Shown here piece by piece: positions 232 through 35,329 of a DNA stretch of 64,000 nt; positions within the stretch are counted from its first letter, which is position 1; every line of letters begins with the position of its first letter. The position numbers and the translations under genes were made by a program. A model generated the notes under the pieces. That model worked only from the letters and a program-made list of their open reading frames with translations, did no database searches and was not told the origin of the DNA. This DNA is from Siphonodentalium dalli (Eukaryota > Mollusca > Scaphopoda > Gadilida > Siphonodentaliidae): contig CP136065.1 in NCBI GenBank assembly GCA_032622095.1, forward strand, positions 56,603,949-56,667,948, given 5' to 3'.

Positions 232-307
232 ATGGTTTCTTGGGACCTTTTATCGCAGAGTCGCCTCCTTATTTTGGTAATTCTTTGTTTGGATTACTGT
301 ATCACGG
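232..307 (+). CDS. Ly6/uPAR-like GPI-anchored protein, exon 1 (signal peptide)
   Basis: First coding exon of a three-exon gene (with 31898-32026 and 35136-35329). The ATG at 232 has A at -3 and G at +4, and an in-frame TAA lies directly upstream at 226-228, so this ATG is the natural start. It encodes 25 residues plus one base: a short polar head (MVSWDLLSQSR) and a hydrophobic core (LLILVILCL), which reads as a secretory signal peptide. The exon ends at a strong donor, G|GTGAGT at 308. The phase-1 junction matches exon 2, completing a Gly codon just before the first domain cysteine, as in classical Ly6 genes where exon 1 encodes only the signal peptide. The distance to exon 2 is 31.6 kb. The same phase would also fit the hexosaminidase exon at 55589, so the assignment rests on fit to Ly6 gene structure and order, not on transcript evidence. 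Confidence 0.72.
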
Positions 308-1339
308 GTGAGTATATAATGAATACAATTACCACATGTCGCTGCTTGTGGAGATAGTGGCTTAGTCGGCAATGTGCATAGTTTAAACATAGTTTATTTT
401 CCAACACAATTCATGTGATTTTACTAACGTTTATACGTCTATGCAAGTATACAAATGTATAACACCCTGTCCATTTGCATATACATGTCATTATGCGTGT
501 ATATACATATATATATATATCGGGTTTATGGAAGCACGTACTCAGTATGAGTGTTCACTGCTTCTTTGCTTCGGTGAGCGTGGACAAATTCTCATTTTTT
601 AAAGACAGATGCGTTTGGATGGAAAGGGAATGAAAGTAATCTTTTTACAGTCGTCCGTGTACAAAGCAGGTACGCCTGATAATTCGTTGAAAAATAAGTC
701 ACACCGCGCATTATGTCGTCATATGCCGTCCAGCAATAGCGAATCTGGTTCCATTCTCGATAGGCGCGGAGTTGTGATCCACGCACTGGAAAGGTAATCT
801 GATTTGTATAATTATGTTTGGAAAATCTGTAAGTTTCTTATACCAGAGAATATGATTAATACATAGGAGCGGGATGATTTCCCAAAGGAATTATCCCGAC
901 ATGTGACATTAATTTTCCTGCACCAATAACGAATAATAACGAAGAATGACATATAGCGACTGAAACGACAATGAATCTCTTCACACGAAACAAAACACAC
1001 GTTCCTTCTCGCAACTTTCCAACAACAGTGAAACACCAATAAGATATGACACACTCCATTGAAAATCGGACTGTTTAAATTAACCCAAACGGCATAGTTG
1101 GAATTGTTACGTTGTGTGGGGAAATGGCGACGTAAGTTGGAAATACCCGACATACAATAGGCCAAGATTTTTGCAATATTTAGTCAAAATATGTTGTTCT
1201 CGAATGTTAGATGATATACGGCTGCATATACACATGAAACAGTCATGTTTGTCTGTCTGTCAGCTATAGAAATTAACTGGTGACCATCTGGAGGGTTCCA
1301 AAGGGGTCCAACAGGGTTATCTTTATATGAGAAAGATAA

Positions 1340-1960
1340 TCGTGTGGGTGACTCTGTCGTGGTCAGGGACAGGAGGTGGAGCAACAACATCGATGACATC
1401 TTTTTGTCGCGAAATTCCTCCAAACTTATATATAATCATCTCCAGGGTATGAGGAGTCTAATAGTGTGGTCTAAAGATGCCAAATTGTGCAATTTTGGAT
1501 CAGCGTTGGGGGGGGGGGAGGCATTAAATTGATAAGAAAGCGTTCAGTCGCCGATTTACACCCAAAACTTATATATATAGTAATCTCCATGATATGAGGA
1601 TTCTAATGTTGTGGTTAAAATATGACGAAAGTGTCGTCGTTCAAGTCAGGGACGGGAGATAGGAAGTGCACCAAATTAGCACAATTTTTTTTTTAGCGCC
1701 TATTGTCAACAAATTAAAATCGTTTTTTCTCCATGATACGAGGAATCCAATCGTGTTTTTTAAAGAAGCCAAATTTGAGCAGTTTTTGGGTCAGGGATGG
1801 CTGAAGGCAGTTGATAAGAATGTCTTGGCCGCTAATTTTAACCTAACTTTATATATAGTCCTTCCATGACACCGATAACCTAATCGTGTGATTTAAAGAA
1901 ACCAAAGTAGCCCAATTAGAATTAAAGATGGGGAAGGAATTGTCGCCGATGCTCTCCAAT
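1340..1960 (-). repeat. Degenerate tandem repeats of the ~140-bp satellite family, reverse orientation
   Basis: Recurring blocks (CCAAACTTATATATAATCAT, then TGAGGANTCTAAT and GTGGTTTAAA) match the reverse complement of monomers in 4110-5340. At least four degenerate units can be followed. A run of eleven G lies at about 1508-1518. Confidence 0.7.
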
Positions 1961-1970
1961 CATATATATA

Positions 1971-2520
1971 GAGGATCCTCAACGAGTCCCCAGTTTACAG
2001 CGGAATTTACAAAACGAGTCCAGTAAATTAGGTCTGGGCCGAGCGAGGTCCAGAGTCTCCAGACCTTATTTACTGAACTAGTTTTGTAAATTCCGCTATA
2101 AACTGGGGACGAGTCATAGATTCTATATATTACACGATCCAAAACCTCGACAAAACATACTTAAATCAACAAATGGGACGCGAAACTAACATCGGCTTCT
2201 ATAAGGCATGAGATGAAGTTCCACGTAACAATGCGTCGTTTGCCGCGTAAAGAAATAGTCCCAGATAAATAAAGACACTGTGGCATATTTAATGGCGTAT
2301 ATTTAATGACATAACTTTCAAACTCTTCATTCATCATAGTTTGTTGGAATCATATTGGAAGACATAGTATTTTTGAGATGTAGCGTACGGAATGTAAACA
2401 GACGATAAACCGGAAGTCGAAGGTCACCTGGCACTATTTCCTGTTATTACACGAACGTTTAATATCACAATTTATAGAATGGGATTATTGAATGGAACAA
2501 GGGTAGGATCATGTAATAAA
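1971..2520 (+). mobile_element. Composite hairpin element, copy 1
   Basis: About 550 bp: a ~160-bp near-perfect palindrome (CCCCAGTTTA...CAGTAAATTAGGTCTGG and its complement) followed by a ~385-bp core ending GGATCATGTAATAAA. The same palindrome-plus-core is present at 18755-19307 and, inverted, at 36606-37092. No ORF, so it is a non-autonomous DNA element or MITE. An inverted copy of ATTTATTACATGATCC bounds the core. Confidence 0.8.
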
Positions 2521-2639
2521 TCCTAATCACTTACAATGGTGTTAATGGTGTGGGATTAAAGGTGGTGATATAGTGGCCAGGGTTCGACTAGAGGATGGCA
2601 CCATAATTTACAAAATATTTACGGTCAATTATTACCAAA

Positions 2640-2690
2640 TATATATTATACTAGCAGGGTTACCCGGCCTTGCCCAGGTTAATGTATGCT
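2640..2690. repeat. Short 'ACTAGC...ACCCGG...TGCCC' motif
   Basis: The sequence around ACTAGCAGGGTTACCCGG can form a small hairpin. It resembles the GACTAGCC / GCCCGACGTTGTCCGGGC motif that starts the array unit at 22.58 kb, so it may be a solitary terminus of a Helitron-like non-autonomous element. Weak. Confidence 0.25.
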
Positions 2691-4076
2691 GTGGATATTT
2701 GTTGGGAATAGAGAATGCTCTTGCTTAAAGTGTTATACGTTTTCTCATAAATTGTATATTCAAATAGCATCACAAAACATGATTATTACAGTCATGGAAT
2801 ATAAGTAGTGGCTCACCTTGTCATTTGTCATTCTGTTTATCGCGATAAATCCGTTCCACCAATAATGAAGTATTTATTTATTTACAACTGCGTATACATT
2901 AGACGTTATAATATGATACATGAACATCATAAACACATTTGTTCGATAAAAGATGATAATTGGGTTTTACATATTGAGATGTATCAATCAATCTAGTGGG
3001 TTGGACTAAGATCTAGAGGACACCTGGCTATCATATCTCCATGAAGATACAGATGTTTCAAAGAAATTTCCAGGTGCTCCTCTGTTCATGGTGCTATATA
3101 TTGGCTAAATATTCTTAGTTTAAACGAAATGTTGCTGCGCACATATCAGCTACATGTGCCAGGCACAGAGCGAGATTTTGAGTTGTTTATGTCAGTCGAT
3201 GAGTCTGTACTAAAACCCTTGTCAGATGTCAGTATTGGTAGGATCCTGAAAAGTCTTGTGCTACTAACTGCATTTTCTTGTATATCAGAAGAAACTATAT
3301 TTGACTGCACACTGTGACCACTATTTTTGAACAGGCCTTCCATATCTCTTGACAAATTGTAACTTTTTGTGGAAACTGTATTGAATGGAACAGACTAAAT
3401 TTGTTATTATATATATGCAATCCTCTGACGGTTCGAGGTCTCTCAGTTTGCACGAATATATGTATCTCTTCAGTAGAATGATAAATATACGTTTAATGCT
3501 TCTTCTAGTTATCTCTTTTTGCTAGCTCATTGTGTGAATGCCTTGATTGCCATTCCCATATAAATATGACTGTTAAGAAGATACAATTGTTCAAGTGACT
3601 TATGTGGGTCACCATATGTCGGGATTGTGAAATGTGAACGCCCAACTACTTAAAATGATATGGAGATGGCCTGGCGACTGTATATAACTTATATGTGGAT
3701 ATCGGCGAATAGCAATCTTATCAATGATAGTGCATATCCGCTCGCCATCCGTGACGCAAACGACACCAAATGTGATTTAATTCATGGTATATCATTAGAG
3801 AAAAACGTGTATGAATTTGGTGGAATTTGGTTTATTAAATCAATTGTTGATGCAACGCTGACTCGAACAACGCCATATTGCGAAGGTGATTATGTATTCG
3901 TTTGGTGGAAATCAGCGACAAAACTATTTCACCATATTTTTTTAATTTCCCCTCCCACCAACAGCGTCATTTCAGAAAATTTTAACCCGCACCATTATCT
4001 TCCTTGTAAAAAGTTACCCCTCTTAGAACGCCTTGGTGCCATCTCGATTGTACCGCGTGAAGTTATTATAGAACGC

Positions 4077-4107
4077 ACACAGACAGACAAAAAGACAGAC
4101 AGACAGC
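4077..4107 (+). repeat. (ACAG)n microsatellite, interrupted
   Basis: Tetranucleotide run closing the first composite of the array. Confidence 0.9.
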
Positions 4108-5434
4108 ACGATTTTATTTCTTGTATCATTTGAGAAGAACGTGTCTGAATTTGATGGTAATTGGTACTAAAAATATTTTGTATCAATTTTGGTGACCCTC
4201 CCGCCCCTATTTCGGACTCAAGCTGCACACACTAAGACTCATTAGAGATTAGAGATGCATATATATGAAATTGGTGAAAATTGGCGAGTATACAAATTCG
4301 TATCAAATTTAAGGTCCCCATATCTCTCACCCATAGGGCACCAATTTGGTGTATCTAAACCACACGATAAGATTCATCGTATCACGGAGGAGAATATGTA
4401 TCAATCTGGTTGAAATCGGCACTAAACATATAGATATAATTGTTTGTGTCCCTCTCATCTCTATACACCACTGACTCGAATGGCCCCACTTGTGACATCC
4501 TTAAACCACACGATTACACTCCTGATATCATGGAGATGATTGTTTATAAGTTTGGTGATAATCGGCGACTAAACAATTTTTTTTATCAAATTTGGTGCCA
4601 ATCCCTCCCCTCTCCATCTCCCACCCAAACAGCACCACTATGGCGTCTTTAACTCACGATTAGATTCCTCGTATCATGGATAAGAACGTGTATCAATTTG
4701 GTGGAAATTGGCGCTAAAAATATTGTGCATCAATTTTGGTGCCCCTGTCCCTTTCAATGCAACCCTGGCTCGAATGAGGCCGCATTTGACAGATAAAAGC
4801 CACACCATTAGACTCCTCATACCATGGGGATGATTTTGTATAAGTGTGGTGGCAATCGGCGACTTATTATCAAATTTAGTGACCACCCCCTCCCAATCTC
4901 TCATTCAAAAACAACAATTTAACGTTGTTAAATCGCACAATTAGATTCCTTGTATCATGAAGAAGAATATATATCAATTTGGTGGAAATCGGCGCTAAAA
5001 TAAGTTTTTATCAATTTTGGTGCCCCTCTCCCCTTCCGTTCATCCCTGTCTCAAACGACGCCACTTTTGACATATTTAAAGCACACCGTTGGATTCTTCA
5101 TATCATGGGGATGATTATATGTAAGTTTCGTGGCAATCGGCGACAGAAAAAACATCTGCCCCCCCCCCCTTCCGGGCACACCGGACGCGAACGGCGCGAC
5201 TTTTGCCATATTTAAACCACACCATTAGATTCCTCATTTTATGGGGATGATTATATATAAGTTTGGTGGCAATCGGCGACAAATTTTTTTCTGCCCCTCC
5301 CCCTTTTCTGCCCCTGACAACAACGGCGTCACTTTAGAAAATTCTAGCCCCGACCATTATCTTTCTCGTAAAAAGCTACTCCTAGTAGACCCCTTTGGCA
5401 TCATCTAGATGGTCCCCTGTGAATTTCTATAGAA

Positions 5435-5435
5435 C

Positions 5436-5478
<43 letters not shown>
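5435..5478 (+). repeat. (ACAG)n microsatellite
   Basis: About eleven perfect ACAG units closing the second composite. Confidence 0.97.
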
Positions 5479-7411
5479 TTCGCAAATATAGATATAGATA
5501 TACATGTAGGCATCCCCATGAGTCTAATTGAGTGGATCAAAGTTGGCAGAGCCAGCAACCTACGGCATAATTTGCTAAAAATTCAGCATTCGTTTTTTAT
5601 TCTATATCAGCATGTTGTTAGACTGATGGACTATCCCAATAAGTAATCTCAGATACCGGTACTTCAAAGGCCTTTCGTCGAACAGATTAGTTTTAAGGAG
5701 ATTTTTGCGACAATCTCGAATATTGGTGACCGAAGTCACTTGAACACTTATATTTTCTTAACAGTCATATTCATAATTATATGGGTACGGGATTCATGTA
5801 GTGAGCTAGCAAAATTTGACACAGAGCTCATTCGTTATCTTTTTTATATGGAGTTATTTATATAGTTGAGAAAACGATGACTACTCGTTTCGATGTGAGA
5901 AATCTTGGCCGCCATTTTCGAGCAATATTTGACTCAGGTACCAGGCATTATGTGACGTTGCAAACTCCATGCAGGGTATATCTCCCCTGATGCCTCGATA
6001 ATACAGCTGTCGAAGGGGACAGTTTATCCACATTTTGTGGACTTTCACGATATTATTATATATACTAAGCGAACAGAGCTGCATGTTGCCCTGCTCAAGC
6101 ACACAACATATCGAACACAGTTTGCATTATTTCGTAACTTATGTTTAAAAGGTCCCACTATGACCAAATAACTATTTCGCTCAATGGTGTGCTTTAGTTC
6201 TCTTGTTATTTTATCAACACATATGTCTAAATGCACACGAACAACACCACGCATGGCAAACAATCAGTTAAGTCAAACAAATGCCTTCTAATTGGCTGCC
6301 GCTCTAAATGTCCATTCTCTCAATAAGTGTGTAGTGGGGGAATTATCACACAGGGAATCTTAAAGCACACAGGGAATTTGACTTTGGAGGATCACGTTCG
6401 CCATTGTTGGAGATAGTCTAGATAATGCGCAAGGTCAAACAAAAGAACACATGGCGTCTGGGATTTAAAAGCTCATCGAAGTCAACTGTTCTTTGCGAAT
6501 AGAACTCAGACAAACGCTCTCTTTGTACGATTTCAGGAATATATATCCAAGTTTTTTATCCAGATTATATGACCTGAATGTCTTTGTATAGCTTAAAAAC
6601 CTCTATAAAAGTATTTCGCATATTTATCCCGGGAATCGGTCCGGGATGAAACATAAGCGAGCATTACAAAGAATTACCTAATATTCCCAAACCACCAGGC
6701 GCCATTAAGACTAATGCGCTCGTACATAAAGGATATAATACCAGGTCCGGATGGCACCGCTTATCAACTAATTATAGCAAGTTCCTAACTATGTCAAGAA
6801 CGCGGGGTCTCTCATCTAGTGTTTATAGGGTGTCCCAAAAATCGTTGGTCCCGTAAAAGATTCGCTCCAGTATATCTAATTGAAGCTGAACTGATGGGAA
6901 TTTGGGCATCAAAGTCCATCATTTGGGCAATATTCCATTATGGTGAACGACACCGTGTAATTTAGCTGCTGCTAGCGATAGATAACGAACCATGGCCACG
7001 CGTGCGCCGTGATATCACACAGCACCAAGAATTATATACTTACTCTGAAGCCCAACTCATTTGCATCCTGTCTGTGGTGTCGGTTCCCGGCGAAGAAATA
7101 TTGAAGTTGCAGAGACAGAACTGTATAATGAGAACTATGATTTATCGCATGTTTTCCAATTAAACGGATATTGCTCGTTTGAACCAAATTATATCTTCAT
7201 AATTTGAAAGGAGGGATAATATAGGTCTATGAATAATGAATTGTCTATTACTTTAAAAGACTTGCCAATGTAGTAATTGTCGAGCTTTTCATATAAATTT
7301 TCCAAGTACATATAAGAACATTTCCCGAGGGAACTGCTCATGATAATGAGTATATAGTAAAGAAAGTGTTAAATGTTGATTTAGCATCACCATATATTTC
7401 ATAGACATTAG

Positions 7412-7590
7412 TAAGCAATTATTTCATGTGTCTTTTGGGAACAGTCAAAATTGTTGTCCCGAGCTATCAGGAATGACTATCGAACTGTTGCCCAAGGCCG
7501 AAGGCCTTGGGCAACAGTTTGATAGTCATTCCTGATACCGAGGGACAACAATTTTGCCTGTTCCCAAAAGACACATGAAATAATTGCTTT
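7412..7590. mobile_element. Long palindrome (fold-back MITE)
   Basis: Arms of ~85-90 bp begin AAGCAATTATTTCATGTG and meet at CCAAGGCCGAAGGCCTTGG near 7500. They carry only scattered mismatches, suggesting recent origin or conversion. No ORF. Confidence 0.9.
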
Positions 7591-7707
7591 GTTATACCCA
7601 ATACATTTACTTGTATATAATCAGGTGACAGTGACAATGCGGAAATCCGGTATAATTAAAAAACGAAACCGGAAATAGCCGAAACGTCACGGAAATTGCA
7701 AACCATG

Positions 7708-7852
7708 TAACAGTTCGTTCGGGCCAGTCAACAGTTCGCTCGAAGCCAGTCAACAGTTCGCTCGGGTCGGGCAACAGTTCACTCGTGACGTCACGAAAGC
7801 TGACCGTGATGGCAACAGTTCATTCAGGGTGGGCAACAGTTCGTTGTGGCGC
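7708..7852 (+). repeat. Short tandem repeats with core CAACAGTTCGCTCG
   Basis: Six copies of CAACAGTTC(G/A)(T/C)TCG with spacers of 7-27 bp. Most units are ~21-22 bp apart. The GGCAACAGTT core also occurs in the neighbouring palindrome arms. Confidence 0.85.
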
Positions 7853-8324
7853 TACGAACGCGAATTTGGGGTTAACCAGTTAATTCTAAATCCCAATGAT
7901 TTACGAAGTAAAACTCTACTATTGGGTAACAATAAGAAGTGTTCAACGGTGAGTTCCATTGACTCTATACAGCGGGATTCCATTGGGGTCTAGATCTCGC
8001 CAAGTGTGGTCGATGCAGGCGTGAGCGTTAATTCTGATTGGGTTGACAGTGCTATTCCAACGGAGTACTGTGGATAGGATGTCGTGCATGTTCCGCCCCG
8101 GTTCGATATTTTATTTTGCCAAATTCGTTCAGTAATAATTGCCAATGCTCTCGGTTTCTGCAATATTATGAGTATTATGTTTCAAGAATCATTGTTTGGC
8201 GACTCCACTTTCTGGATTGTTCTTTCACTCTGGTGTTGAAGAATGTAGTGTTAGCTATCTGGAAGCAATACATTAATAAGTGTTGCATTTCGTTTATATC
8301 ATAGAACAATAAAACAATCACCGA

Positions 8325-8719
8325 ACAATAATGTAATAATAATGTATATCATTTATATAGTGCTCAATCTCTGGTGTAGCAGTAAGCGCTTACATTATTA
8401 CCCCAGCTGTTTTTATGAGTAATGCCGAGTCCTGTGCCTGCTGCCATTTTACAGGTGCTTCACTAGAGCGGCTTACGGATACCCAACAACCAGGTACCTA
8501 TTTCTCGTACGACGAAGCTAGCACAGTTAAAGCGACCATGCCCAAGGGTCACAACCTGGCGCGAGATTTGAAACAGTGTGTGGCTATATATAGCACACAC
8601 CACTTAATCCGGCCAAGCCACTGTTGCGGAGACGATAGTCCACCGGCAGGGCGCGAACTCATGCCGGTGAGTTGACACCCTTACAAGTCCGACACTCTAA
8701 CCACTGGGCTACCACTTCC
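8325..8719 (-). mobile_element. tRNA-derived SINE
   Basis: On the minus strand the head at 8719 reads GGTAGCCCAGTGGTTAGAG (box A-like) and later GAGTTCGCGCC (box B-like). A conserved body contains GCCCAAGGGTCACAAC in plus orientation. The distal end has TTTATATAG...AAGCGCTTACATTATTA and an AATAAT-rich tail at 8325-8345. Not a functional tRNA: box B diverges and no cloverleaf acceptor stem is evident. Confidence 0.7.
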
Positions 8720-11299
8720 ACAATAGAAGGGCTACTTCGTCGAGAGGGGCTGGGCACGCCTACATAAAGAGGACTAAAATGTAAACACCACCGCCATGCA
8801 TAAATCCTCCACCGCTCAATACTATAATGCAATCAGAATAACTATATCTTCATAACTACATAATTTATAATTTATTCAAAGGACGAGTCTGAATGACACT
8901 TAGTCCCGGTTAACAGCATATCAACATTGCAAATTCGTCACAATAATCAACATAATAATGGTAATGCTATAGCATTCGATTTAGTTTGATTCGAAATTCC
9001 TTCGTTGTGTGTTAACTTGCACTGACCTGATACACGTAAGTCAACTGTAGTTGTGAAATTTCCCTGAAATGAATGGTATTGAGCAACCAATAATTTCAAC
9101 AATTTTCTTGAGGAATAGATAGGTCTCTTGAAAACAAATTAAGTTATAGTGAATACCTTACTAAAATACAGTACAGATCTTTCACAAAATGGACACATAC
9201 CTGTAGCTGATCTAGACGACGCAACTATATTGGCTTATGTTCGAAACATACTTTCGTTCCCGAAATCACCCCACATATACACTTTGAAGGCTTCCCTGTT
9301 TTCAACATATACAAATCTCACAGGATTCTATGAAGCTATTCGAATCATCAATGGTGCCCGAGATCCCGTGAATAATACTTCAGTGGTATGAGTTGAATAC
9401 CAGATTGTGACACCAAAGTATCGAAGAATGCACGAGAGTGTTACGGTACTATCTGCCACCTCAAATCTAACTATGTAATTCCGGACTTGTTGAATTTGTT
9501 TTTCGGACATTCACAAATGGACATAATTAAGATTTTATACCATCAACCTCTTTATTGTTTCTTCATCTCCTGTTGTCTCCCTGGTAAAGTATAACAGTGT
9601 TGATTATATGGAAGTTGTGAAGAATGGGTGGTATCGTCTACAGGGATGGAGCGATTACACACCTAATGTATTTGATTAAAAGGCAAATACTTTTAAATTT
9701 TTCGATTACAAATACAATACAAATGCTTTTTCCAATAGATGTATTTGATTAGAAATACAACAATTTTCTCAAAGTAATCATATATCTGTCGAAGTAATCA
9801 CATGCTTATTGATTACATCTGATTACTTTCCGATGAAAAAATGAAGAATTGCACATTTTATTTTATCGTAGTGTCAAAATACATAGTCAACCTTAAAATT
9901 AAACTAACATGTGGACCAGATGTAACAAAACCTCTTGATTACAAATACAATAAAGTTACTTCAAAATTTGTAATAATTACCAATACAATTCAAATACTGA
10001 ATCCCTGCATACAGAGATTGCGGTAACTAAATATATGCTAGCAGACTTCGCCGTTTGTTTCTATTGTATCATCTAATTATATATTCGGACCCACGAGATA
10101 GCTTCTATTAACGAGCTTACTTGAAGTCGTCGTTAAAAGTGAGCTAATTCCCAAACCAGTCGTTACAATAATCGGTCCGACGTGGGTGTGGCACTGATTG
10201 TGGGGATTCCAGCTGAACAGAGAACTGCATGTGCAAGAGCTGCGTGTGGACTTCAGCTATGTCTTTTTGCATGTGCGCGATGTGCGGTTGCTGGGGCCGA
10301 GCGGAAAAGCCCGTTACGACATCAGTATAGTTATCTTCTCCGACTCGACTATCCACTTTGCGGTGTGTGTATCAGGTTCTTCTAATTACAACTTACCTTT
10401 CCACAGCTGTCAGTAAAATAATATCAGTAGATATTTGCTACAAATCAGCAACTGACTCGGTTGATTGCTGCACTGAAATGTCTTTGTTCACAACACTTTT
10501 GATATCATCGCATAGTGTCAGTGTTAAAATGGTTATTTTCAAACAATTGTGTTGTCAAATCATACTTTACTGACATTTTGATTCGTGCAATGCTGTTGTA
10601 AATTCTTCCATGATTATAACACTGTTTTTAATTGTGTGTGTCACTCGTCATATGTTTTACAATTATAAACAAAACGAAGGCACGTTATCCAGTGCATTAT
10701 ATAGCATATCGGCGGTGGTTGTAAATCTAATTTACAACTATTTATATACAGACGCCTTGTCTCAAAGTAACTGTAAACTGCCCAACTAAAGAATATGTGC
10801 GAAACCGCCATTATTATTATACTTCCATATTTTTAATATGGAAGTATAGTGTTATTCTTCAAATTCATTTTTTTTATTATAATTTTTATTCCAACGACCT
10901 CCAATTCTCAGAAACTGTGAGGGCGACGGGACTGAAACTTTGCATACTAATTAATACCTTAGTGAGCCTAGGTCACCGTCGGGACATTGATAATTTTGTC
11001 CGCCGTTGGCTTGCAGAGTTATCTACTTTTATGTGCAAAAATGGGGTTGTTATATCTCGGAAATTATGAGGAGCAGAGACTCGAAATTTTGACCATATAT
11101 ACATCTCAGTATGCTCTATTGCGTCCATGCATAACATTTTATGTCCGCACTTATTCTGCAGAGTTATCTCCTTATTGATCGATATGGACATACGTGTGTG
11201 TCCATATCTCCTCCTGAACGACTCAACCTATTGGCAAACGGCATGTATCAAATTGTTAGGCGTTGGGTCCTTAACAACTAGAGAACTTCTGGTCAGTTC

Positions 11300-11620
11300 C
11301 GGATTAAGGGATCTGGTCAGAGGAGGGGCACCAAAATTTGTAAAAAATATTTTGTCGCCGATTGGCACCTCCTGAATTTCTAAGTATCCTAGCGTTCGAA
11401 TTTTTTCGATCCAACTTATGGGCCTTCAAACATTGCTATTTGGACCAAAGTGGGTCGTGGCCCTGTCTCATCCGGAACTAATGAATCTAGGTCAATAATT
11501 GATATGTATTTTGATTGGAAATTATGGTGTGAAGACATGGGACCCATTTGGTACTTGTCGAATAATGGGCGGGGTCAGGTAAGGGGGGTTCAAATGGTTC
11601 CAAATTTATGCCATTTTGTT
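11300..11620 (-). repeat. Degenerate copies of the ~140-bp satellite family
   Basis: GAGGGGCACCAAAATTTGTAAAAAATATTTTGTCGCCGATTGG-like sequence (pieces such as GTCGCCGATTGGCACC) is the reverse complement of the B-type monomer in 4.1-5.3 kb. Degenerate. Confidence 0.5.
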
Positions 11621-13927: not shown

Positions 13928-14890
13928 TTAACAGTCAGGTCGCGGATCGGGTGGAGAAGTCTTGAGATCGGGATCGGTCAGCGTCGCAGGTGTCTTGAAT
14001 CTTGTCTTGTCTTGAATCTTCCATCTTTGCTTGGGCTTTGCCTTGTACTTTTGCCTTGATCTTTTTCTTTTTCTTTGCCTTGTCTCGGCATCTTGCAAAA
14101 TGCGGGACGATCCAGCGATGATGCTGGATTGCGCATTTTCAGTTGGTTGTCCATGCCCGGGACCTTCCAATGGAGGCATTGGATTGCGGGCTGCTAAGAG
14201 AGTACGGGACGGTCCAGTGATTCCACTGGACTGCGTGCTCTCTTCTGTTACCGCCCGGGACGGTCCAATACACCTTATTGGACTGCGGGTCTTTTCTGAA
14301 GTGGGATACGGGACGGTCTAGCATGGCCTGCTTGACTGCGTATCCTAAAACCCGGGACGGTCCAATAAGCCTATTGAACTGCGGGTCTTTTCAGCCACAG
14401 AGAAGTTGTTTGCGTTGTAAACATTCCCTCATGATGTCACTGCCGTCCATTCTCGCCAGTGTACTTTCCGCCAGATCGCACAGGCGCTCTCTGATGGGTT
14501 CCACGTCAGCGATGGTATGCAGATCTACAATACGGGTGTGATACGGTGCTTGCAGTGCCATTCTCAGGGCTTTGTTTTGGACCACCTGGAGCATTTGGAT
14601 CGCTCGATATGATGCCAGGTTGGTGACCACCGATGCGTATTCCATGATAGGTCTTACAAACGTTTTGAAGACTCTAAGCAGAGTGGCCATGCTAGCTCCC
14701 CAGGAAGTTCCCCTCAGCCGTCTGAGAAGATTAACTCGTTGCATGGTCCTCGTGGCTGTCTGCTTAACATGGGTTAGCATGGTGAGTCTGGAGTCCAAGG
14801 TGACGCCTAGGAAGGTCACCTCTTTTGCGGCAACTAAGTCAATGCCACTGACATTCAGTTTGACCACCGAATTCGGGGTACACTGTGGTA
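13928..14890 (-). pseudogene. Non-LTR retrotransposon relic: reverse-transcriptase C-terminus and 3' region
   Basis: On the minus strand, 14867-14391 encodes ~158 residues of the region after the RT catalytic core. It includes VTFLGVTLDSRLTM (the 'FLGV.LD..L' motif), RPIMEYAS and LQVVQNKALRMALQAPYHTR, typical of jockey/CR1-like elements. No YADD palm motif is present, so the 5' part is missing. Downstream (14395-13928 on the minus strand) is a 3' region containing six tandem hairpins and a Lys/Arg-rich reading frame. No intact ORF2 or endonuclease. Confidence 0.85.
14095..14395. repeat. Six tandem ~50-bp hairpin units
   Basis: Each unit reads CGGGACGGTCCA-N5-12-TGGACTGCG (plus strand), with the stem sequence varying between units (CCAGT/ACTGG, CCAAT/ATTGG, CCAGC/GCTGG). 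Both arms change together, keeping the pairing. The units lie in the 3' region of the LINE relic. Confidence 0.85.
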
Positions 14891-18740: not shown

Positions 18741-18754
18741 GCCATTGAATATAT

Positions 18755-22022: not shown

Positions 22023-22565
22023 GCACTGATCGCCAGCGAACCCGTTTCCGAGATCGACGTTGTCCGGGCTATTCAAAAACCAAATTTCAAGTCGATAGCT
22101 CTACCCAGCCCGACGTTGTCCGGGCTATTCAAAAACCCGTTTCCGAGATCTCGTCTGCGCATGCGCGAAGCTGGCGTCGCACGGGCTCGGCGACCCGATA
22201 AAATTCGTATCCGGGGCAAGATACATTCACACACCAAATTTCAAGTCGATAGCTCCACCCGTTTCCGATATATCGTCTGCGCATGCGCGAAGCTGGCGTC
22301 GCACGGGCTCGGCGACCCGATAAAATTCGTATCAGGGGCAAGATACATTCACACACCAAATTTCAAGTCGATAGCTCCACCCGTTTCCGAGATCTCGTCT
22401 GCGCATGCGCGAAGCGGGCGCCGCACGGACTCGCCAATACGACAACGTCCACCGCCTGGTCAAACTACACACACGTACCAAGTTTCGTCCCGATCGGTCG
22501 AGAATCGTAGATTTGTATCAATGACAGACAAACATACATACAAACAGACAGACAGAGGATTTCAA
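22023..22565 (+). repeat. 122-bp tandem array ending in ACAG microsatellite, unit 1
   Basis: The GCGCATGCGCGAAGC anchor recurs at ~22161, 22283 and 22405, exactly 122 bp apart. The last monomer runs into a distinct tail (CGACAACGTCCACCGCC... GTTTCGTCCCGATCGG) and an ATGACAGACAAAC/ACAG tract at 22522-22557. The block opens with AGCCCGACGTTGTCCGGGCT, a 6-bp-stem hairpin. The apparent 75-157 residue ORFs only reflect GC-rich monomers. Confidence 0.85.
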
Positions 22566-22586
22566 AATATATATGAGACTAGCCGA

Positions 22587-23227
22587 TGAGCCCGACGTTG
22601 TCCGGGCTATTCAAAAACCAAATTTCAAGTCGATAGCTCTACCCAGCCCGACGATTTCAAGTCGATAGCTCTATCCGTTTCCGAGATCTGGTCTGCGCAT
22701 GCGCGAAGCTGGCGTCGCACGGGCTCGGTGACCCGATAAAATTCGTATCCGGGGCAAGATACATTCACATAGCAAATTTCAAGTCGATAGCTCCACCCGT
22801 TTCCGAGATCTCGTCTGCGCATGCGCGAAGCTGGCGTCGCACGGGCTCGGCGACCCTATAAAATTTGTATCCGGGGCAAGATACATTCACATACCAAATT
22901 TCAAGTCGATAGCTCCACCCGTTTCCGAGATCTCGTCTGCGCATGCGCAAAGCTGGCGTCGCACGGGCTCGGCGACCCGATAAAATTCGTATCCGGGGCA
23001 AGATACATTCACATAGCAAATTTCAAGTCGATAGCTCCACCCGTTTCCGAGATCTCGTCTGCGCATGCGCGAAGCGGGCGCCGCACGGGCTCGCCAATAC
23101 GACAACGTCCACCGCCTGGTCAAACTACACACACGTACCAAGTTTCGTCCCGATCGGTCGAGAATCGTAGATTTGTATTAATGACAGACATACAGACAGA
23201 CGGAAAGACAGACAAACAAACAGAGGT
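22587..23227 (+). repeat. 122-bp tandem array ending in ACAG microsatellite, unit 2
   Basis: Second head-to-tail copy of the same composite. Anchors fall at ~22699, 22821, 22943 and 23065 (122-bp steps), with the same tail and an imperfect ACAG tract at 23182-23225. It opens with the same GCCCGACGTTGTCCGGGC hairpin. Adjacent monomers are nearly identical, unlike the 4-kb array, so it is younger or homogenised. Confidence 0.85.
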
Positions 23228-23245
23228 CTTCAAAATATATATGAG

Positions 23246-23385: not shown

Positions 23386-23387
23386 TT

Positions 23388-23553
23388 TGTTTATGCCACG
23401 ATCTTTACAATGCGATGGATAAACACTTTTCCGTTCAAATTGTATGGAGAAAGATTAATCCACTCTGTGAAGTTTATGCCACGATCTTTACAATGCGATG
23501 GATAAACACTTTTCCGTTCAAATTGTATGGAGAAAGTTTAATCCACTCTGCGA
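23388..23553 (+). repeat. 83-bp tandem duplication
   Basis: TTTATGCCACGATCTTTACA recurs at ~23390 and ~23473. The two copies differ at only a few positions. Confidence 0.9.
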
Positions 23554-26203: not shown

Positions 26204-26394
26204 CTGAGTCGCGGCCATATTGGATCCATCCAGCCCCGTTCCGTTGTTTTAGTGCTACAGATCAAAGTTCTGGAGTAGCATTCCATATATTTAGCTTTTG
26301 AATATTCATATATGGAACTCTATTCCAGAACTTTGACCTGTAGCACTAAAACAACGAAACGGGGCTGGATGGATCCAATATGGCCGCGACTCAG
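26204..26394. mobile_element. Long palindrome
   Basis: Arms of ~85 bp (CTGAGTCGCGGCCATATTGG...; the other end reads CCAATATGGCCGCGACTCAG). The loop is AT-rich near 26300. Mismatches are few. Confidence 0.9.
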
Positions 26395-26999
26395 GGACCA
26401 GTCTAAGGGTTTCAAATGGAGAGAAGCCGTATATATTTGTACGAATGCCTACATTGGATGTTCCTCGAAGCACAACCAATGGCAACATTCGTCATTATTT
26501 TGTCCATAATGGCGGATTGTGGTGAAAAGTTAATTGAAGCACGATAGATAGGAATTCATTACAGCGTTAATTACAGAAAAAAACAACAGGCAGACGTTCT
26601 GATTGCTGCCAAGGAAAAAAATAATCGATTTGCTTCGAGTGAAATATCTGTCTCGAGAATGCGAAGAAACCATTCTCTGATGTAATGAAGTCGACGAATA
26701 TCGTTCTGTCTCACCGAGAGCTTTCCGATGAATGGCAACAAGCAATATTTCCGACTAAATCCTGAAAAGTTACCCATAATTCTGCTGTGGTTAAGAGGTC
26801 GATTAATTAGAGCATTGCTGTATATATAAACTCAGTTCAGCCCACACGCACAACTAGTTAATAATCAAACTTATTCAGTAATTTTTTTGAATGCCCACAT
26901 CAAAATCAATACTGATATAAGTCCAGGATAAATTGCAGATAGAAATGTAATGTTCTGCTGGAGATTACTCCAGTGTATATGTTACAGCCATATCGTGAA

Positions 27000-27110
27000 A
27001 TCGTTAATTTCGTGAAATCATTCAGTCATTTCATGAAACTACTGTATGGGGCAGTCATTTCATGAAACGACTAAAAATGTCAGTCATTGCGTGAAATGAC
27101 TGCAATCTAC
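27000..27110. repeat. Cluster of CATTTCATGAAAC / CGTGAAAT short inverted repeats
   Basis: At least six copies of the half-palindromic core TTTC(A/G)TGAAA occur within ~110 bp, in alternating orientation around CAGTCATT. Confidence 0.6.
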
Positions 27111-27713
27111 TGAAGTTAGAAATGTTTTCAGAATAATGTAATTATGGACCGAAATCAGAAAACTATGTAATTTGTTGATATCAATATTTTATTCACGAAA
27201 GTGACAACGAACACGAGATATAAATGTACACCCAACACAACAAAATTGAGTCTTATTTATGTTAATGTTCAGTTCAAACTACTATGGCAGCGGCTAATTG
27301 TAGAGTAGATCTGCACTGAAACACTTACATCTCTACGTCTTACATTTCTTTGGACCACTGCACGAACATTTGATGAAGTCTTGTCCGCCACAAATTGATG
27401 ACTTAACAACGGCTTCTGGTGTGGGGGGGGGGGTAATCTCGATCAAGGTCTAACCCAGTCAGAAGTGTTCAGGGCAAACGTCGAACTGGATTCTTGAGTA
27501 GAAGCCTATGATGGTACCATACTTTACCGCTATACTATTAGGGTTACATGCAGCAAATAAAGTTCAAAATGTGCTTAGCTTAGGTGGTCTTTTATACAAG
27601 AGGGGCATTAACTCTTGTAAAACAAGGAATTATAATCATACTCTTCAAGTGCTGATTGAGTTCATCAAAAGTTATAAACACATGGAAATATTATTAGATG
27701 ACTATTATTAGAC

Positions 27714-27964
27714 AAGCCTTGAAATAGTGTGTCTGTCATTTGCAGAATGAGGTCCCCAGATGGTGAATTTAGTTATGCTACCCCCATAGCGGGCTAGCAT
27801 CACCAAATTCACCCTCTGTGAACCTCATTCTGCTGAGGTGTAAGCAGAATGAGGTTCCCAGAGGGTGAATTTGGTGATGCTAGCCCGCTATGCGGGGTAG
27901 CATCACTAAATTCACCCTCTGGGGACCTCATTCTGCAAATGACAGACACACTATTTCAAGGCTT
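27714..27964. mobile_element. Nested palindrome (palindrome of palindromes)
   Basis: Outer arms AAGCCTTGAAATAGTGTGTC... pair end to end over ~120 bp. Each arm itself contains an inverted pair of a ~45-bp module (GCAGAATGAGGT..., AGGGTGAATTTGGTGATGCT, AGCCCGCTA), so the module appears four times in alternating orientation. Confidence 0.9.
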
Positions 27965-28249
27965 CGTTTTATATGACTATTGTTGACCGTCACGCGTACT
28001 CCAATGTTATGGTGGGCATCACACGACAGTTTCGAATAGTTCAATGTAAAAGCAAAACACTTTTTTCGGTTATAACTCATAACCTTAATCGAAACAAGAA
28101 TTATTTCTTGCCATTTAATCAGTCATTCGAAAGAGAACCACAATAAGTAGAAGGTAGAAGTAAAACGAGCGAAAAACAGTCCTGAAGATGATTTCCGAAG
28201 AAAACCACGTATAAAATAGAAACCTGACACCCTGTCACTCCACCCTCTA

Positions 28250-28330
28250 GACTATTCGCTGCCAATACTCGTCGGGATTCAAACCACATTCGGCAACTTA
28301 TATATTATACCGGCTGAGATATCCGTTGAT
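28250..28330 (-). mobile_element. SINE head fragment
   Basis: The minus strand carries CTCAGCCGGTAT...GTTGCCGA...GTTTGAATCCCGACGAG, the same tRNA-like head as at 29100. The body was not delimited. Confidence 0.5.
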
Positions 28331-29096
28331 CAAATGGCGTCATCAATTCATCATTTGTATTGGCTAGTGGCAAGTGATCACGCAATTGCGTTGCGCGTGT
28401 TTCTGATATATTTCGGCTGATAGTTTCATTTATTTGACATTGTTAGCATGGGGGTTGTTGATTAGTCTATGTATTTTTGTACTGAGGGCTAGGAGAATAC
28501 GGTTATTGGGCATCGAAGTTCCCTTTTAAATCGTAGGAATTATCGAATAATTTCCATATACATTTAGGCATGTGGTATAGGTGTGGCATATCCCTCGATG
28601 CTGATGTTGGTTTCCGTGTTAATTGGTTGAGAGGCAACATGTAGCGGAAAGACAATTTCGAGAAATAACTGTATGACAACCAATTGTTTTATCATATTCC
28701 GTGGATTGACATCTTATGATTAAATTATTATTTACTTTGTTTAAGTTGAGACTATTAAGATTGTGTTCCAAATAAAATTCGGGGTTCCTCAATCAGTATA
28801 GTGAATTGGTTGGTTTTTGGGTTCCTCAATCATTAGGGTGAATTGGCTGGAATTGAGTTCAAGTGAATTGTCTGGTATTGCTTTCTCACACTAGTTTGAT
28901 TCATGATTGATTGCTGTATGGCGATCAAGTTCTTTCAATTATTCATGAGAAGAAAATTAACAATGCGGAAATATTGAAGTTGATGGAAGATCTGTTGACT
29001 AGTGATGAATCTCGCACAAGTATATTACCAATTGTCTCTAACTGAGGCAATGTGACGCCCATGTTGACAGAAGGGTGCACTATTCAAGTCGATGGT

Positions 29097-29690
29097 GCCC
29101 ACCTCCCGTGGCTCAGTCGGTATGAGTTGCCGAAGCTAGTTTGAATCCCGACGAGCATTGTCAAGGATAAGTCTAGAGCTGTTAAAGGCACGGGCAGCGT
29201 TCGTTGCAGAAATATTCATATTTGTTCAAATCACCACCAACAGAAGGAATATTAAAATATATATAGTTTTGTTCATATGCCAAACATAAACAGCGCGTAA
29301 ATAGTATAGTACGATGGTGTACGTAAACAAGAACCTGCTCGTGTTACAGACAGAAGTTTTGTTTCTGTTTACATAACACAGCGCAATTCTATTGGTTAAT
29401 CACACACAAATGATACAAACGCTCTTTATTATATCCATATCAGGAAAACAGTAACAAATAACGCTCTTTATGTTTACCATATCCGGATCTAAACAAAAGC
29501 CAGGTTCTGTAACATTTTTTGCTTTTGTTTACATAACAAAGGAAAAACATTTGACAATAACATACTGTTTATGCCATATTTCTGATTGGTATAAGAACAA
29601 AGTCTGTTTATATTTTACTATTATTTCTGTTTATGTCGGTTTTTGACGGAGGTGAATATTTTAACAGCATACCCACCGCCAACACCGCCC
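29097..29690 (+). mobile_element. tRNA-derived SINE-like element with 'AACGCTCTTTAT' body
   Basis: The head CCCGTGGCTCAGTCGGTATG and GTTTGAATCCCGACGAG look like A and B boxes. The body has repeated ACGCTCTTTAT and GTTTACATAACA motifs, and the end reads GCATACCCACCGCC. The body is homologous, inverted, to 51480-52005. Related AAAGAGCGTTTGT pieces occur near 43375 and 47655. Confidence 0.65.
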
Positions 29691-30329
29691 GTATCTTTAA
29701 ATTGATAGATATCACATATTCATTAATTTGGGAGCAGTGGACTGACTAAAGACTGAACACCTCAAAATCTCACATTTATAATCCTATCACCACCAGATGT
29801 ATTGAGTAATGGACACCCTCATACATACTACAATAACAGAGAGGTCACTTATCCGTGGATAGAACGGAAAGGCAGTGTTATTTCAAGTAACTTCTGATCA
29901 CGATGGCACTAACTATATTCTTTTCAAAAATATATGTATACCATATAAACCAAATTTCATTTTAATAATAACCCGAAACCATGAATAAATTTTAGCTTTT
30001 AGTTGTTTCTATACTCTAGAAACATGCAAAGTCAGAGCAAAAGAACCAGTCTAAAGATTATTCGCACTTCTGGCGTCTTTCCTATATGTGTACACTGCAT
30101 ATCAGACACACGACAATTTGGATATCCCTTTCACTCTATTCTGTTTCTGACACAAACTTTACCACTACTAGCTCGGTGACAAGCATTACATCATGTCCAA
30201 ATAGTGACCCTGTCATCTATATCTGGTTGACTTAAATATATAAGCTTTATCGCGATGTGGCTTTATTTGAAGACGAGCCATATAGAAGTTAAGCTTGTTG
30301 TGGGATTCCTAACACCGTATATTTAACAT

Positions 30330-30475
30330 ATGCGCAATTGCTCCCATAAGGAGCCTCGCATATGTAAGAGAATACATTGGCCTAACAATATTTACCTTGC
30401 TCTTGTAAGTCAGTGCATTCTCATATATTTGTGAGACTCCCTATGGGAGACTCGCATAGATAAGATAATGCACTG
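30330..30475. mobile_element. Hairpins of the CATTCTCTTATATATGCGAG family
   Basis: One partial hairpin (30330-30382) and one full hairpin (30411-30475). The adjoining sequence is homologous to that after 42053-42125. Confidence 0.7.
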
Positions 30476-30589
30476 GAACATGATCCTTAATGCTGCACAC
30501 AGCTCCCGCCACGAAAGGGTTAAAACTTTTTTAAAAGCAACAGACAAGAATATAATATTGACATCGCCCCAACAGTTTTTCGTCGCGTT

Positions 30590-31855
30590 ATCATAAGTTA
30601 TCTCCGGCAACATTGGTGTACATGTAGATTTAATACCTGGATGTTTTTGCCCCCCCCCCCGACCTATGGATCTGGCGTCAGGTGGCATCAGATATGGCGT
30701 AATAGAGCAACGTCACGATTCGTGGAATCTGCCAGTTCAAGGGTCATTCAAATACCCCCGACGTTTCGCGTATTCATATATATACCCCCCAGGATTCGCG
30801 CACTTTCTCTATATAATAAAAAAAAAAACCCTCTGTCAAGGGTGACCGGAGACATTGCGATATGTACGTGGCGTTGTATCCAATCAGATTGCTAGTTACA
30901 ACCAGATGTGGGGACAATATTAGTTATCTTCGGCAACATCGGGGGTAAATGGAGATTTAATACCTGGATGTCGATTTTGAACCCCGAGACGGAGCCGAGG
31001 GGTTCAAAAAGAGACATCCAGGTATTAAATCTCCATGTACCCCACGATGTTGCCGGAGATAACGATTTTGTCCCCACAACAATAACCATGTCTCCTTAAT
31101 TTAAGTGTGTTTTCATAGGTTATCCGATTAATTCACACCAATAAGAATAATTCAGTAGCTGACCTAAGGACCCGGCGTCAGGTGACGTCAAATTCGGCGT
31201 GCGAGAGCAACGTCACGATTGGTGGAAACTGCCAGTTCAAGGGTCATTCATATACCCCCGATGTTTCACGTGCTCATATATACCCCCGATGTTTGGCGCA
31301 CGTTCTCTTATACCCCGCCGTCAAGGGTGACGGGGACATGGTGATTTAAACGTGGCGTTGTAGCCAATCAGATTGCTAGTTACAACCGGATGTGGGGACA
31401 ATCTAAGTTATCTCCGGCCACATCGTGGGTACATGGAGATTTAATACCCGGATGTCGATTTTGAACCCCCGCCCGAGAGGTTCAAATAGTGACATCCGGT
31501 TATTAAATATCCATGTACCCCATAATGTTGCCCCCACAACAATATACTGTAGCTTTTCGGCCTCAATTTGTGGTTTTCATAGGTTGTCACATTAATTCAC
31601 ACCAATCAGAATAATTCAGTAGCCGACCTATGGACCCGGGGTCATGTGACGTCAAACTCGGTGTGCTATAGCAACGTCTGAACGTCACGATTGGTGAAAA
31701 CTGTCAGCTCAAGGGTAACTCATATATCCCCGCTATTTCGCGCACACGTTTTCGTAAACCGATGTGAAGGGTGACAGGGAGCATGATAATTTGAACGTGG
31801 CATTGTAGCCAATGAGATTACTAATTACAACCGGATGCGGGGGACACTGTTAATA
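30590..31855 (+). repeat. ~460-500 bp tandem array with an internal palindrome per unit
   Basis: GACCTATGGA(C)CCGG starts units at ~30661, 31161 and 31625. Shared blocks include AACGTCACGATTGGTGGAA, TGCCAGTTCAAGGGTCATTC, TACCCCCGATGTTTCGCG and TAGTTACAACCGGATGTGGG. Two units contain palindromes (30898-31080, 31380-31545) with TACCTGGATGTCGATTTTGA arms. The third unit is cut short just before Ly6 exon 2. Confidence 0.85.
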
Positions 31856-31897
31856 TTTTATGCTATATTTTCTAAATAAAATATGTTTTAGTTTCAG

Positions 31898-32026
31898 GGA
31901 GGATTTCCTGTACAAAATGCGATAGCAAAGAACAAAGGGATTGCAGCACTAACCCACCGGAGTCTTCACTGTGTCCATCGAGCGCCGTCGGCTGCTCCAT
32001 TATTAGAGAGAAAGATGCTAACACTG
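31898..32026 (+). CDS. Ly6/uPAR-like GPI-anchored protein, exon 2 (LU domain, first half)
   Basis: This 129-bp exon lies between a good acceptor (TTTTAGTTTCAG, AG at 31896-31897) and the donor G|GTAAAT at 32027, with phase 1 at both ends. In the frame set by exon 1 it encodes residues 27-68, starting ISCTKCDSKEQRDC. Cysteines fall at 30, 33, 41, 51 and 58 of the spliced protein: the CxxC start and cysteine spacing of a Ly6/uPAR (LU, three-finger) domain. A second frame of the exon is also open but has no such pattern; the third is stopped by a TAG. It lies only about 45 bp downstream of a 1.2-kb tandem repeat array. The family (quiver/sleepless, bouncer and other invertebrate Ly6 proteins) is extracellular and membrane-tethered, often modulating receptors or channels or acting in adhesion. 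The specific role here is unknown. Confidence 0.85.
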
Positions 32027-32344
32027 GTAAATTACTATACTATTCTAATCAGCTCCCGACCAATCAGAAGTCTTGAATGTCATGCGACGTTTTCATGAAA
32101 AATCTCCATATAAGCATGACCTCTATAACGTTGAAATTCCCCGTGCGGGCCCGATGTACAATAGGCCTAACGCCCCACTGCGAGCGGTAAGAATCCCCTA
32201 ATGTGGCACCCTGTTTGTCGTGGGTGCATCCCGTGAGGTGTGGTGTAGGAGTCCTGGAGGTACTAGAGCGGCCGTATCACGTGAGGCCTCGACTTTCGAA
32301 TGCGACTTAGCTCGTGGTCCTTTGTTCCTACAACTTTTCAAGAA

Positions 32345-34250
32345 GGGTGGTTGAGTTGACACTGCTCAATCAATCGGCTAGTCAGTGTTCTCCACAGTGT
32401 TTCAGATTACATTTCTGCCATCTGTTCTATTATATTTCTGGTGTCTAGTTGTGTCTTCTGTTTTTTTTTCATGTATGTTTCTTGCGTGTCATGTCTGTTT
32501 GCATTTCGTCTTCATCGCTGTTAAATGTTCAATTGTGCACTGTTCACACCTGTCTCAGTGTGGCGAGGTACCGGGAGGCTGCTATATGTAGTGGCTAAAC
32601 GGATCGCCTCTTCAGCTATGTACCAGTCTTTGGCCCGATCATAATTCGAAGGGTAGTTCGAGGCGGCTGCTGTGCTAGTTGTCGATTTCTTGCTTTTCAT
32701 ATGGCAATTCATTACAACAACAAAACGTAAGAATGACCACCCGCCAAGTTCCAATGATGCTGAGGTCTATCCTCGGTACTTGTTAATGTTTTATCCAAAT
32801 GTCAAGAAACCTTCTGTGTTTGTGATTGATAAAACGCCACAAAGCATAGCAGGACAATTAAAATCTGTCAAACCGATCAGGACTGGGCCACTCAGTGGCT
32901 CTCTTCTGATCGAATGTTCAAGAAAAATTCAAGGTGACGCTCTTGTGCAACTAACACCTATTGCATAAGCACCATTGTTGGTTACTCCCCACAAGACATT
33001 GAACAGTAGCAGAGCTGTTTTAAGAACTCGCGATATAACTGATTCTTCTGAGTCAGAGGTATTGGCCGAGTTGGCACCACAGGGAGTTACAGAAGTCCGT
33101 AGATTTACGAAGACAGTTGGTGGTAAAAACAGTTAAGTTGAACAGTTATCTTTTGACATTCAATTGGTGCGAACATCCACCGACATTGAAGGTTGGGTAT
33201 GTGAAGATGGCTTTCAATACATTTCAATGTTCCAAACCCATTGCGATGTTTTAAATGCCAGGGGTATGACCATGGCCAGGAACATTGTAAAAGTAAAGAA
33301 ACCTTATGTGCCCGATGTTCTATTGTTGGTCATGACCATAAGGATTGTACTAATCTTTAACAAATGTTCAAACTGTTAAGGTTCACATGCTGCAATGAAT
33401 CGTTCATGTCCCATTTGGGACAATGAATTCATTATTCAACGATGTAAGGCTAAGAAGCATCTGTCATATATAGATGCTAAGAAAATAGTTGGTCCTTGGC
33501 CATCTATTCCACAGGTCACATACTCAGCAATCGTGGCAACCAAAACGTGTTTTGAAGCCAGCATTCGGACACAGAATCAAACCAAACTCGTCAGTATACT
33601 GTCGATGAGACATTTCCCCCGAAACAATCTATGCAACTTGATCCTAATGTTCCAAAAGAAAAACCGCCTTTTGCTTCGAAAAAACGTTTGGACTCTCAGA
33701 AAGAGAGGTACATCTTTGAGCTTTCAAAATTTGACCACATGACTGATTAGAAATGGTTAACTCTCAAAGACAAGAAACAGTATTTGTGGGTCGAGGCTGT
33801 CGGTTGGGTGAATGGTGACATTCTGTCTCACCAACACGACCGTCAGCTTGACGCATTGATAAAGGTTCATGCGCGATTCATCAAATACTATAAATACCTT
33901 ATCACCGCAAAAGCTTATTTTAAAAGCTACTTTACATATTTCGATGTGGCTCCTTGATAGATTCGTGTTATTTATTTGCTATTTATTATCTATTCCTGTA
34001 CTACCGTTATGCCGTTTATAGTATGATGGCGCACTAGCCAGTTCTTGAATTTATATCCCTGACTCCAAGTAGAAACATTCCTCTTGGGTGCTTTTATTTG
34101 TAAATAGCTCATCTTTGAAGTGTTTTAATCTAATCCACTATCTGATTTATCTACACAGTTGTTTCGCTCCGATTTTATGTATACCCGATTCAATTCTTCG
34201 TCGTGATATGACATAGCGGCTAAAACGACGTTAATCCCTCAATCAATCAT
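32345..34250 (+). pseudogene. LINE ORF1 (gag-like, zinc-knuckle) relic with 3' end, no reverse transcriptase
   Basis: Three-frame reading gives a mollusc-type non-LTR ORF1: PRYLLMFYP...KPSVFVIDKTPQSIAGQLKSV and SGSLLIECSRK (32790-32930), SESEVLAELAPQGVTEVRRF (~33047-33110), a broken zinc-knuckle region (33230-33390; FQTHCDV and CSNC remain), RSCPIWDNEFIIQRCKAKK (33400-33455), then a Lys-rich C-terminus ending ~33957. Frameshifts and stops interrupt it. The 3' end TTAATCCCTCAATCAATC is the usual (AATC)n terminus of such elements. No ORF2 lies between ORF1 and the 3' end. Confidence 0.82.
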
Positions 34251-34351
34251 TACATTGAAATTATATACATAAAACTCGATTCATGTAAAGGCTGTTACTG
34301 ATTGGTCCCTGTTCAAAATGTCACACGTCGAGAAAGCGGCCATCCAATGTC

Positions 34352-34595
34352 AGTTTCTATAATAAATAGGAAATGTTCATATAATAAGTTCAACAATGAC
34401 ACAGGCCGTTTTGGTGAACTTATTATCTAAACATTTCCCACCAATAAATATGAATAATTCTGCTCTTGTGTTATATTTTGTTCTGTCTGTCGTCTGCTTG
34501 TATTACTTACCTGATCACCCCTCCATATTAATAATAGACTGCTCTAATGTACACTTTTCTTACTAAATGGGATAATCCATTTAGTCTTGAAATGG
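34352..34595. mobile_element. TTAA-type MITE, copy b
   Basis: Left end TTTCTATAATAAATAGG. Right end CATTTAGTCTTGAAATGG is followed by TTAA at 34596. The internal palindrome GAAATGTTCATATAATAAGT is shared with copies a and c. Confidence 0.72.
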
Positions 34596-35135
34596 TTAAT
34601 CTCGCTGACAACCGACGAGTATAGATTTGTGTTGCAGACAAAGCAATGTTATTCGTGCAGGTTCTTGTGTGAGTAGATATGTAGGCTGTTTATATGTCGG
34701 GATCGGTGGGTTCTATGTGCAATTGCGTGGTTTCTCAATCAAATTATCTCCCCGTGCGGTCTTTACCACGCAACCGAAGCATACGACTTTATCACGACCG
34801 TAGCTAAGGGAAACTAAACTAAACTGAGGGTGTATTCGAACCACCATTCTGGTGTTCTCGCGAAAGTGATCCGTGTATGACGATTCGAACACAGAGAACA
34901 TACACAGAATGTGTTCGCGGGCTATGATTCACTCTCCGTCCAGTTTTCGGGGATAGAGATGATAATCCAAACTCATGAACATGAAGTAACGATGTTCCCG
35001 GGCCGGTACTCAGTATACGATTATGGATGTTCTCGGTGTCCATTCTACTAACTGTAGAAATTCATTGGAATGTAAAATGGATATACCATAGCTTAGCATT
35101 GCGTGTTTTTTAAATCTGTTTCTGCACTGTTTCAG

Positions 35136-35329
35136 GAGAGATCAAAAAGTTTCATCGGGGATGTACAACGACTTTGGCGGCCAACGGAAAATGTGAGAAA
35201 CTCGACGGACTTATTAAATGTTATACAGTTTGCTCTACAGACGGTTGTAATATAGCCCACGTAACAGCCTACAGTAAATATACTATTGTCGCTACGTTGG
35301 TGTGCACAGGAGTTTTCGTTTTGTCGTGA
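35136..35329 (+). CDS. Ly6/uPAR-like GPI-anchored protein, exon 3 (LU domain second half, GPI tail, stop)
   Basis: Last coding exon, after the acceptor CTGCACTGTTTCAG (AG at 35134-35135). Phase 1 joins exon 2 by completing a Gly codon. It encodes residues 70-132 and ends in TGA at 35327-35329. Cysteines at 78, 88, 97, 101 and 106 bring the domain to ten. The segment CYTVCSTDGCN (residues 97-107) is the family signature, with the final Cys followed by Asn. After it come about eight linker residues and a hydrophobic C-terminus (YTIVATLVCTGVFVLS) with no cytoplasmic tail, as expected for GPI addition. The spliced total is 399 nt, 132 residues plus stop, a normal length for a single-domain Ly6 protein. 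No N-glycosylation sequon is seen. I saw no clear polyadenylation signal close to the stop. Confidence 0.9.

Follow-up and report, generated by a model that had tools for sequence, protein, structure and literature searches.

A probable single-domain Ly6/uPAR gene of three short exons over 35 kb in the scaphopod Siphonodentalium dalli

Introduction

In the review PMC6600238, the genes of single-domain Ly6/uPAR (LU) proteins are described as having three exons with phase-1 introns, in which the intron of the domain is located at the tip of loop 2, the signal peptide is encoded by the first exon and the GPI signal by exon 3. The LU domain itself is given there as 60-90 residues with ten cysteines, an Asn following the tenth, and disulfides in the order 1-5, 2-3, 4-6, 7-8 and 9-10.

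A stretch of 64,000 nucleotides of S. dalli contig CP136065.1 (positions 56,603,949 to 56,667,948, termed the window; coordinates below are those of the window unless a chromosome-type label is given) was analyzed, in which a sequence-only reading had proposed a three-exon Ly6/uPAR gene hidden in repeat DNA. With the single-domain LU genes of PMC6600238, the window gene as modelled shared the three coding exons, the phase-1 introns, the domain distributed over two exons, the ten cysteines in order and the Asn that follows them; a putative signal peptide in the first exon and a putative GPI signal at the end of the third agreed with the same plan. It differed in its first intron, which extends over 31.6 kb in the proposed model, and in the number of residues, three, that separate cysteine eight from cysteine nine. 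As judged from its sequence, the LU features that can be read from DNA are all present in the window gene, the signal peptide and GPI signal as candidates.

Results

Gene model

The joining of 232-307, 31898-32026 and 35136-35329 on the forward strand (76, 129 and 194 nt) gave 399 nt, comprising 132 codons and a TGA stop, with GT-AG ends and phase 1 at both junctions, and thereby bore out the 132-residue frame that had been proposed. Coding exon 1 (232-307), which probably belongs to this gene, contained the ATG, the signal-peptide-like MVSWDLLSQSRLLILVILCLDYCIT and the first base of a Gly codon, and ended at a phase-1 donor. The start codon was preceded by A at position -3 and followed by G at +4; two codons 5' of it stood a TAA in the same frame. 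The proposed intron 1 (308-31897, 31.6 kb, GT-AG) was bordered by CGG/GTGAGT and TTTTAGTTTCAG/GGAGGA. Coding exon 2 (31898-32026), phase 1 at both ends, encoded the first half of the LU domain with Cys 30, 33, 41, 51 and 58, and was found to be a single copy by DNA-level search. The proposed intron 2 (32027-35135, 3.1 kb, GT-AG, phase 1) was bordered by CTG/GTAAAT and GCACTGTTTCAG/GAGAGA and separated the fifth from the sixth cysteine of the domain. Coding exon 3 (35136-35329) encoded the second half with Cys 78, 88, 97, 101 and 106 and Asn107, and ended in a hydrophobic GPI-type tail and the TGA. The first AATAAA 3' of the stop (35955-35960), a candidate polyadenylation signal by hexamer match, fell inside a repeat-like block at 35832-36060.

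In the predicted spliced protein, all ten cysteines were found at the residues given by the sequence-only reading, as were the Asn directly after the last of them, the hydrophobic end and the stop. The ten cysteines occupied 77 residues from Cys30 to Cys106, the junction of exons 2 and 3 fell at residue 69 between Cys58 and Cys78, and the cysteine order permitted the LU disulfide pattern 1-5, 2-3, 4-6, 7-8, 9-10. Three further cysteines, absent from the earlier list, were located outside the mature domain: residues 19 and 23 belong to the signal part, and residue 125 to the tail. Two hydrophobic cores were revealed by Kyte-Doolittle average, at about residues 9-25 and 117-132.

Repeat content and other features of the window

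The repeat content was judged against 148,842 bases from other loci of the same genome, and the figures are lower bounds. Intron 1 matched repeats over at least 17% of its length and intron 2 over at least 59%; none of the 399 exon bases did. The description of the surroundings as repeat DNA was thus borne out in part. The gene had also been called hidden and invisible in an open reading frame list, which is true of its short split exons; the same holds for any short-exon animal gene and does not make this one novel.

Two arrays of a 122-base unit (22135-22433 and 22654-23093), with copies matching at 95%, gave rise to long open frames without apparent meaning. A 103-base unit was present in about two copies at 27742-27936; its consensus reads like an inverted repeat and may represent a small foldback element. 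A reverse-transcriptase-like frame on the minus strand (50451-50972; RVT_1, E 2.3e-4, under the cut-off) is probably a LINE relic, and two other minus-strand frames (14391-14867 and 45779-46159) resembled it by eye and matched no Pfam family. Hexosaminidase-type exons were detected on the plus strand, with CHB_HEX at E 6.6e-21 and GH20 domain 2 together with the start of the catalytic domain at E 2.8e-23. No Rfam family was found within the 64-kb window.

Family assignment

A Pfam search with the joined protein returned two families over residues 28-107, the whole domain and nearly the whole of each profile, both beneath their curated cut-offs: PF05444 DUF753 (22.8 bits, E 1.5e-4; cut-off 24.7) and PF17064 QVR, the quiver-type uPAR/Ly6-like family (21.1 bits, E 6.7e-4; cut-off 27.3). 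Exon 2 alone matched positions 2-42 of the 79 of DUF753 (16.7 bits, E 0.013), so the score was raised by joining the exons, and exon 3 alone matched positions 35-71 of the 74 of DUF7622 (E 0.0075). Ten shuffled versions of the protein were made, and the seven searched (five with the cysteines fixed, two fully shuffled) gave no Pfam match. Since even the shuffles with fixed cysteines matched nothing, the match reflects more than cysteine count. Because both cut-offs were missed, the protein was filed under the LU kind by its architecture and relatives, and not as a certified QVR or DUF753 member.

The window exons were absent among the matches listed in whole-genome searches with PF17064, PF00021, PF05444 and PF24602. 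Two further families searched for in this genome, the arthropod cuticle family PF00379 and molluscan haemocyanin PF14830, gave 0 matches each, which need not mean that they are absent. Search of solved structures by phmmer gave unrelated matches only (best E 1.8). By hhalign, only 15 columns were aligned with three relatives from the same genome, at probability 61.8 and E 7.7e-5, compared with 0.3 and 0.23 for a shuffle. The tail weakly resembled a coronavirus NSP1 model (E 0.11, and 0.028 in a second search), below the cut-off, and this resemblance was put down to chance.

Relatives in the same genome

Several LU relatives were revealed in the same 2.2-Gb genome by exon-level Pfam QVR and UPAR_LY6 matches; 17 of the 18 PF17064 matches were read, that at C4:234.436 Mb being left out. 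The QVR scores of three relatives were 24.7, 41.3 and 53.0 bits, two of which exceed the cut-off of 27.3. Among the places read in the right orientation, all 8 for middle exons and 8 of the 10 for last exons had a phase-1 acceptor candidate, and 7 of the 8 for middle exons had a phase-1 donor. The relatives displayed the same mid-domain split as the window gene. When nine last exons were aligned, an Arg, the cysteines corresponding to 78, 88, 101 and 106, and Asn107 proved invariant. Cys 97 was not aligned with a cysteine of the relatives: it stands three residues before Cys 101, a shift of two, compared with the single residue of the CxC in most relatives.

Apart from its own locus, exon 3 was matched best in the genome by the last exon at C5:191,906,804-191,907,013 (minus strand; L005/L035). 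The match was reciprocal and weak, with about 31-32% identity and E of about 0.13-0.14. Like exon 3, this exon contained C-STD-x-CNI followed by a hydrophobic tail and a stop; unlike exon 3, it had two extra cysteines (RQCTRDC, CVTCC). Within 20 kb no exon 2 belonging to it was detected, and the search for exon 2 upstream of the two closest relatives, over 10-20 kb, was negative. No first exon of a relative was located within 1.5-20 kb upstream, so the form of exon 1 is without comparison.

Signs of duplication were observed among the relatives. At C7:94.23 Mb (L011/L022), the last exon began twice within a single frame, each time with an acceptor (SEGLVVRRLC and SEGLVVSRLC). This partial tandem duplication could permit alternative acceptors. 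At C5:102.147-102.175 Mb (L019, L020, L041), two relatives were 97% identical both in their exons and over about 2 kb upstream, which indicated a recent duplication.

Profiles from the relatives and the first exon

Two profiles were built from these relatives with the window gene left out, one from nine last exons and one from seven middle exons. The near-identical places at C9:142.888 and C5:102.157 Mb were excluded; the last exon at C9:144.18 Mb and the middle exon at C4:24.5 Mb were included, although the acceptor and donor filters, respectively, had found none there, and the exons of L009, L019, L020 and L022, recognised later, were absent from the training sets. Among the 2928 frames of the window, the exon-3 frame ranked first with the last-exon profile (11.9 bits) and the exon-2 frame ranked first with the middle-exon profile (14.4 bits).

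For the first exon, 342 phase-1 ATG..GT candidates of 12-44 codons upstream of exon 2 were screened. Exon 1 was the sole one with both a donor of at least 5.86 bits and a hydrophobic core of at least 3.12, and no candidate of this quality appeared in 200 simulated stretches; the thresholds were taken from exon 1's own values, so the screen is post hoc. Donors were scored with a general animal donor matrix of our own making, by which the exon 1 donor was among 9 of the 3921 plus-strand GT sites reaching 5.86 bits, and the exon 2 donor among the 36 top-scoring sites. Of the candidates screened, exon 1 is thus the one best suited to precede exons 2 and 3. Its link to them is only probable and forms the least secure part of the model.

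Alternative origins of the exons

The exon boundaries had been freely chosen in the sequence-only reading, which raises the question of whether unrelated open stretches were joined on paper. In a small control of 63,202 frames, taken from 20 simulated windows and a reversed one, neither profile score was attained, the best being 10.7 bits for exon 3 and 12.5 for exon 2. In a larger control of 150 simulated windows, the exon-3 score was attained in 8 and the exon-2 score in 3, and both together in none. The single scores are therefore moderately unusual and the pair is unexpected by chance. This control imposed no demand on order, strand, distance or phase, and the two exons of the window gene lie in the correct order on the same strand, 3.1 kb apart, with matching phases. 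As the simulated stretches also gave no first exon of this quality and the Pfam match was lost on shuffling, we regard chance as a nearly negligible explanation. A silent or decayed copy, its exons derived from an LU gene but yielding no working transcript, deserves a little more weight and is still quite improbable. LU genes duplicate often, near-identical partial copies lie at C5:102.16 and 102.17 Mb, and transcription of the window exons is a prediction; against this, signs of decay are absent, with three open exons and intact junctions, start, stop, cysteines and tail.

A further alternative accepts exons 2 and 3 as a real LU gene and gives exon 1 to another gene, or supplies exons 2 and 3 with a different, unrecognised first exon. 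The most plausible other owner is the downstream CHB_HEX/GH20 hexosaminidase, whose frames at 55501-56292 and 60026-60520 are on the same strand as the LU exons. A TTTTAG/GA acceptor at 55589, chosen by eye, a stricter acceptor filter having given none, would be phase 1, and the hexosaminidase may therefore likewise require a first exon of phase 1. Between 35.3 and 55.6 kb, no convincing signal exon for it was found in any phase with a donor of at least 4 bits and a core of at least 2.0; looser settings gave only 48652-48700 and 46853-46895, with weak donors of 1.5 and 2.5 bits. However, the hexosaminidase might use the short candidate MYFLVIICFLIMYFAV at 48652 instead, and exon 1 lies closer to exon 2 of the LU gene. 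If exon 1 were given away, the LU frame would have no equally good first exon in 31.9 kb and the LU gene would be left nested without a signal exon. We consider this alternative unlikely, though it is the strongest of the three. In our view, all three exons very probably form an ordinary single-domain LU gene, similar to the QVR and DUF753 types listed in Pfam for invertebrates.

Discussion

The three-exon, phase-1 Ly6 architecture suggested by the sequence-only reading agreed with the LU standard in PMC6600238, and its exons 2 and 3 were supported by both Pfam and the profiles of paralogues. The product is most likely a GPI-anchored three-finger protein; that it is transcribed, and has the disulfides, fold, GPI anchoring and partner of an LU protein, we infer. 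The signal peptide would come from exon 1 and the GPI-attachment signal from the end of exon 3, with a single ten-cysteine domain encoded half by exon 2 and half by exon 3. The precursor would enter the ER and its signal would be cut near residues 25-27. Five disulfides in the LU order (30-58, 33-41, 51-78, 88-97 and 101-106) would be formed, and the hydrophobic tail (about residues 118-132) would give way to a GPI anchor, attached at Asn107 or shortly beyond it. Displayed on the outside of the cell, the three-finger domain may then bind and tune a receptor, a channel or another surface partner. The partners of insect quiver-type proteins include potassium channels and nicotinic receptors.

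Since several relatives exist in the same genome, an added member of this known family is of low surprise. It is conceivable, and on balance doubtful, that the window gene and the relative at C5:191.907 Mb, perhaps with that at C3:186.92 Mb, found an undescribed LU branch with its own surface-receptor role in this lineage. If such a branch exists, its distinguishing features might be C-x3-C (or C-x2-C-C) ahead of the last STD/x-C-N loop and first introns of great length, a proposal that is just as tentative.

These results indicated that a gene of three short exons over 35 kb can be recovered by careful reading of raw sequence, and that the S. dalli genome contains a QVR/LU family. The window gene would add one fast-evolving surface protein to a family that has been expanding separately in many lineages.
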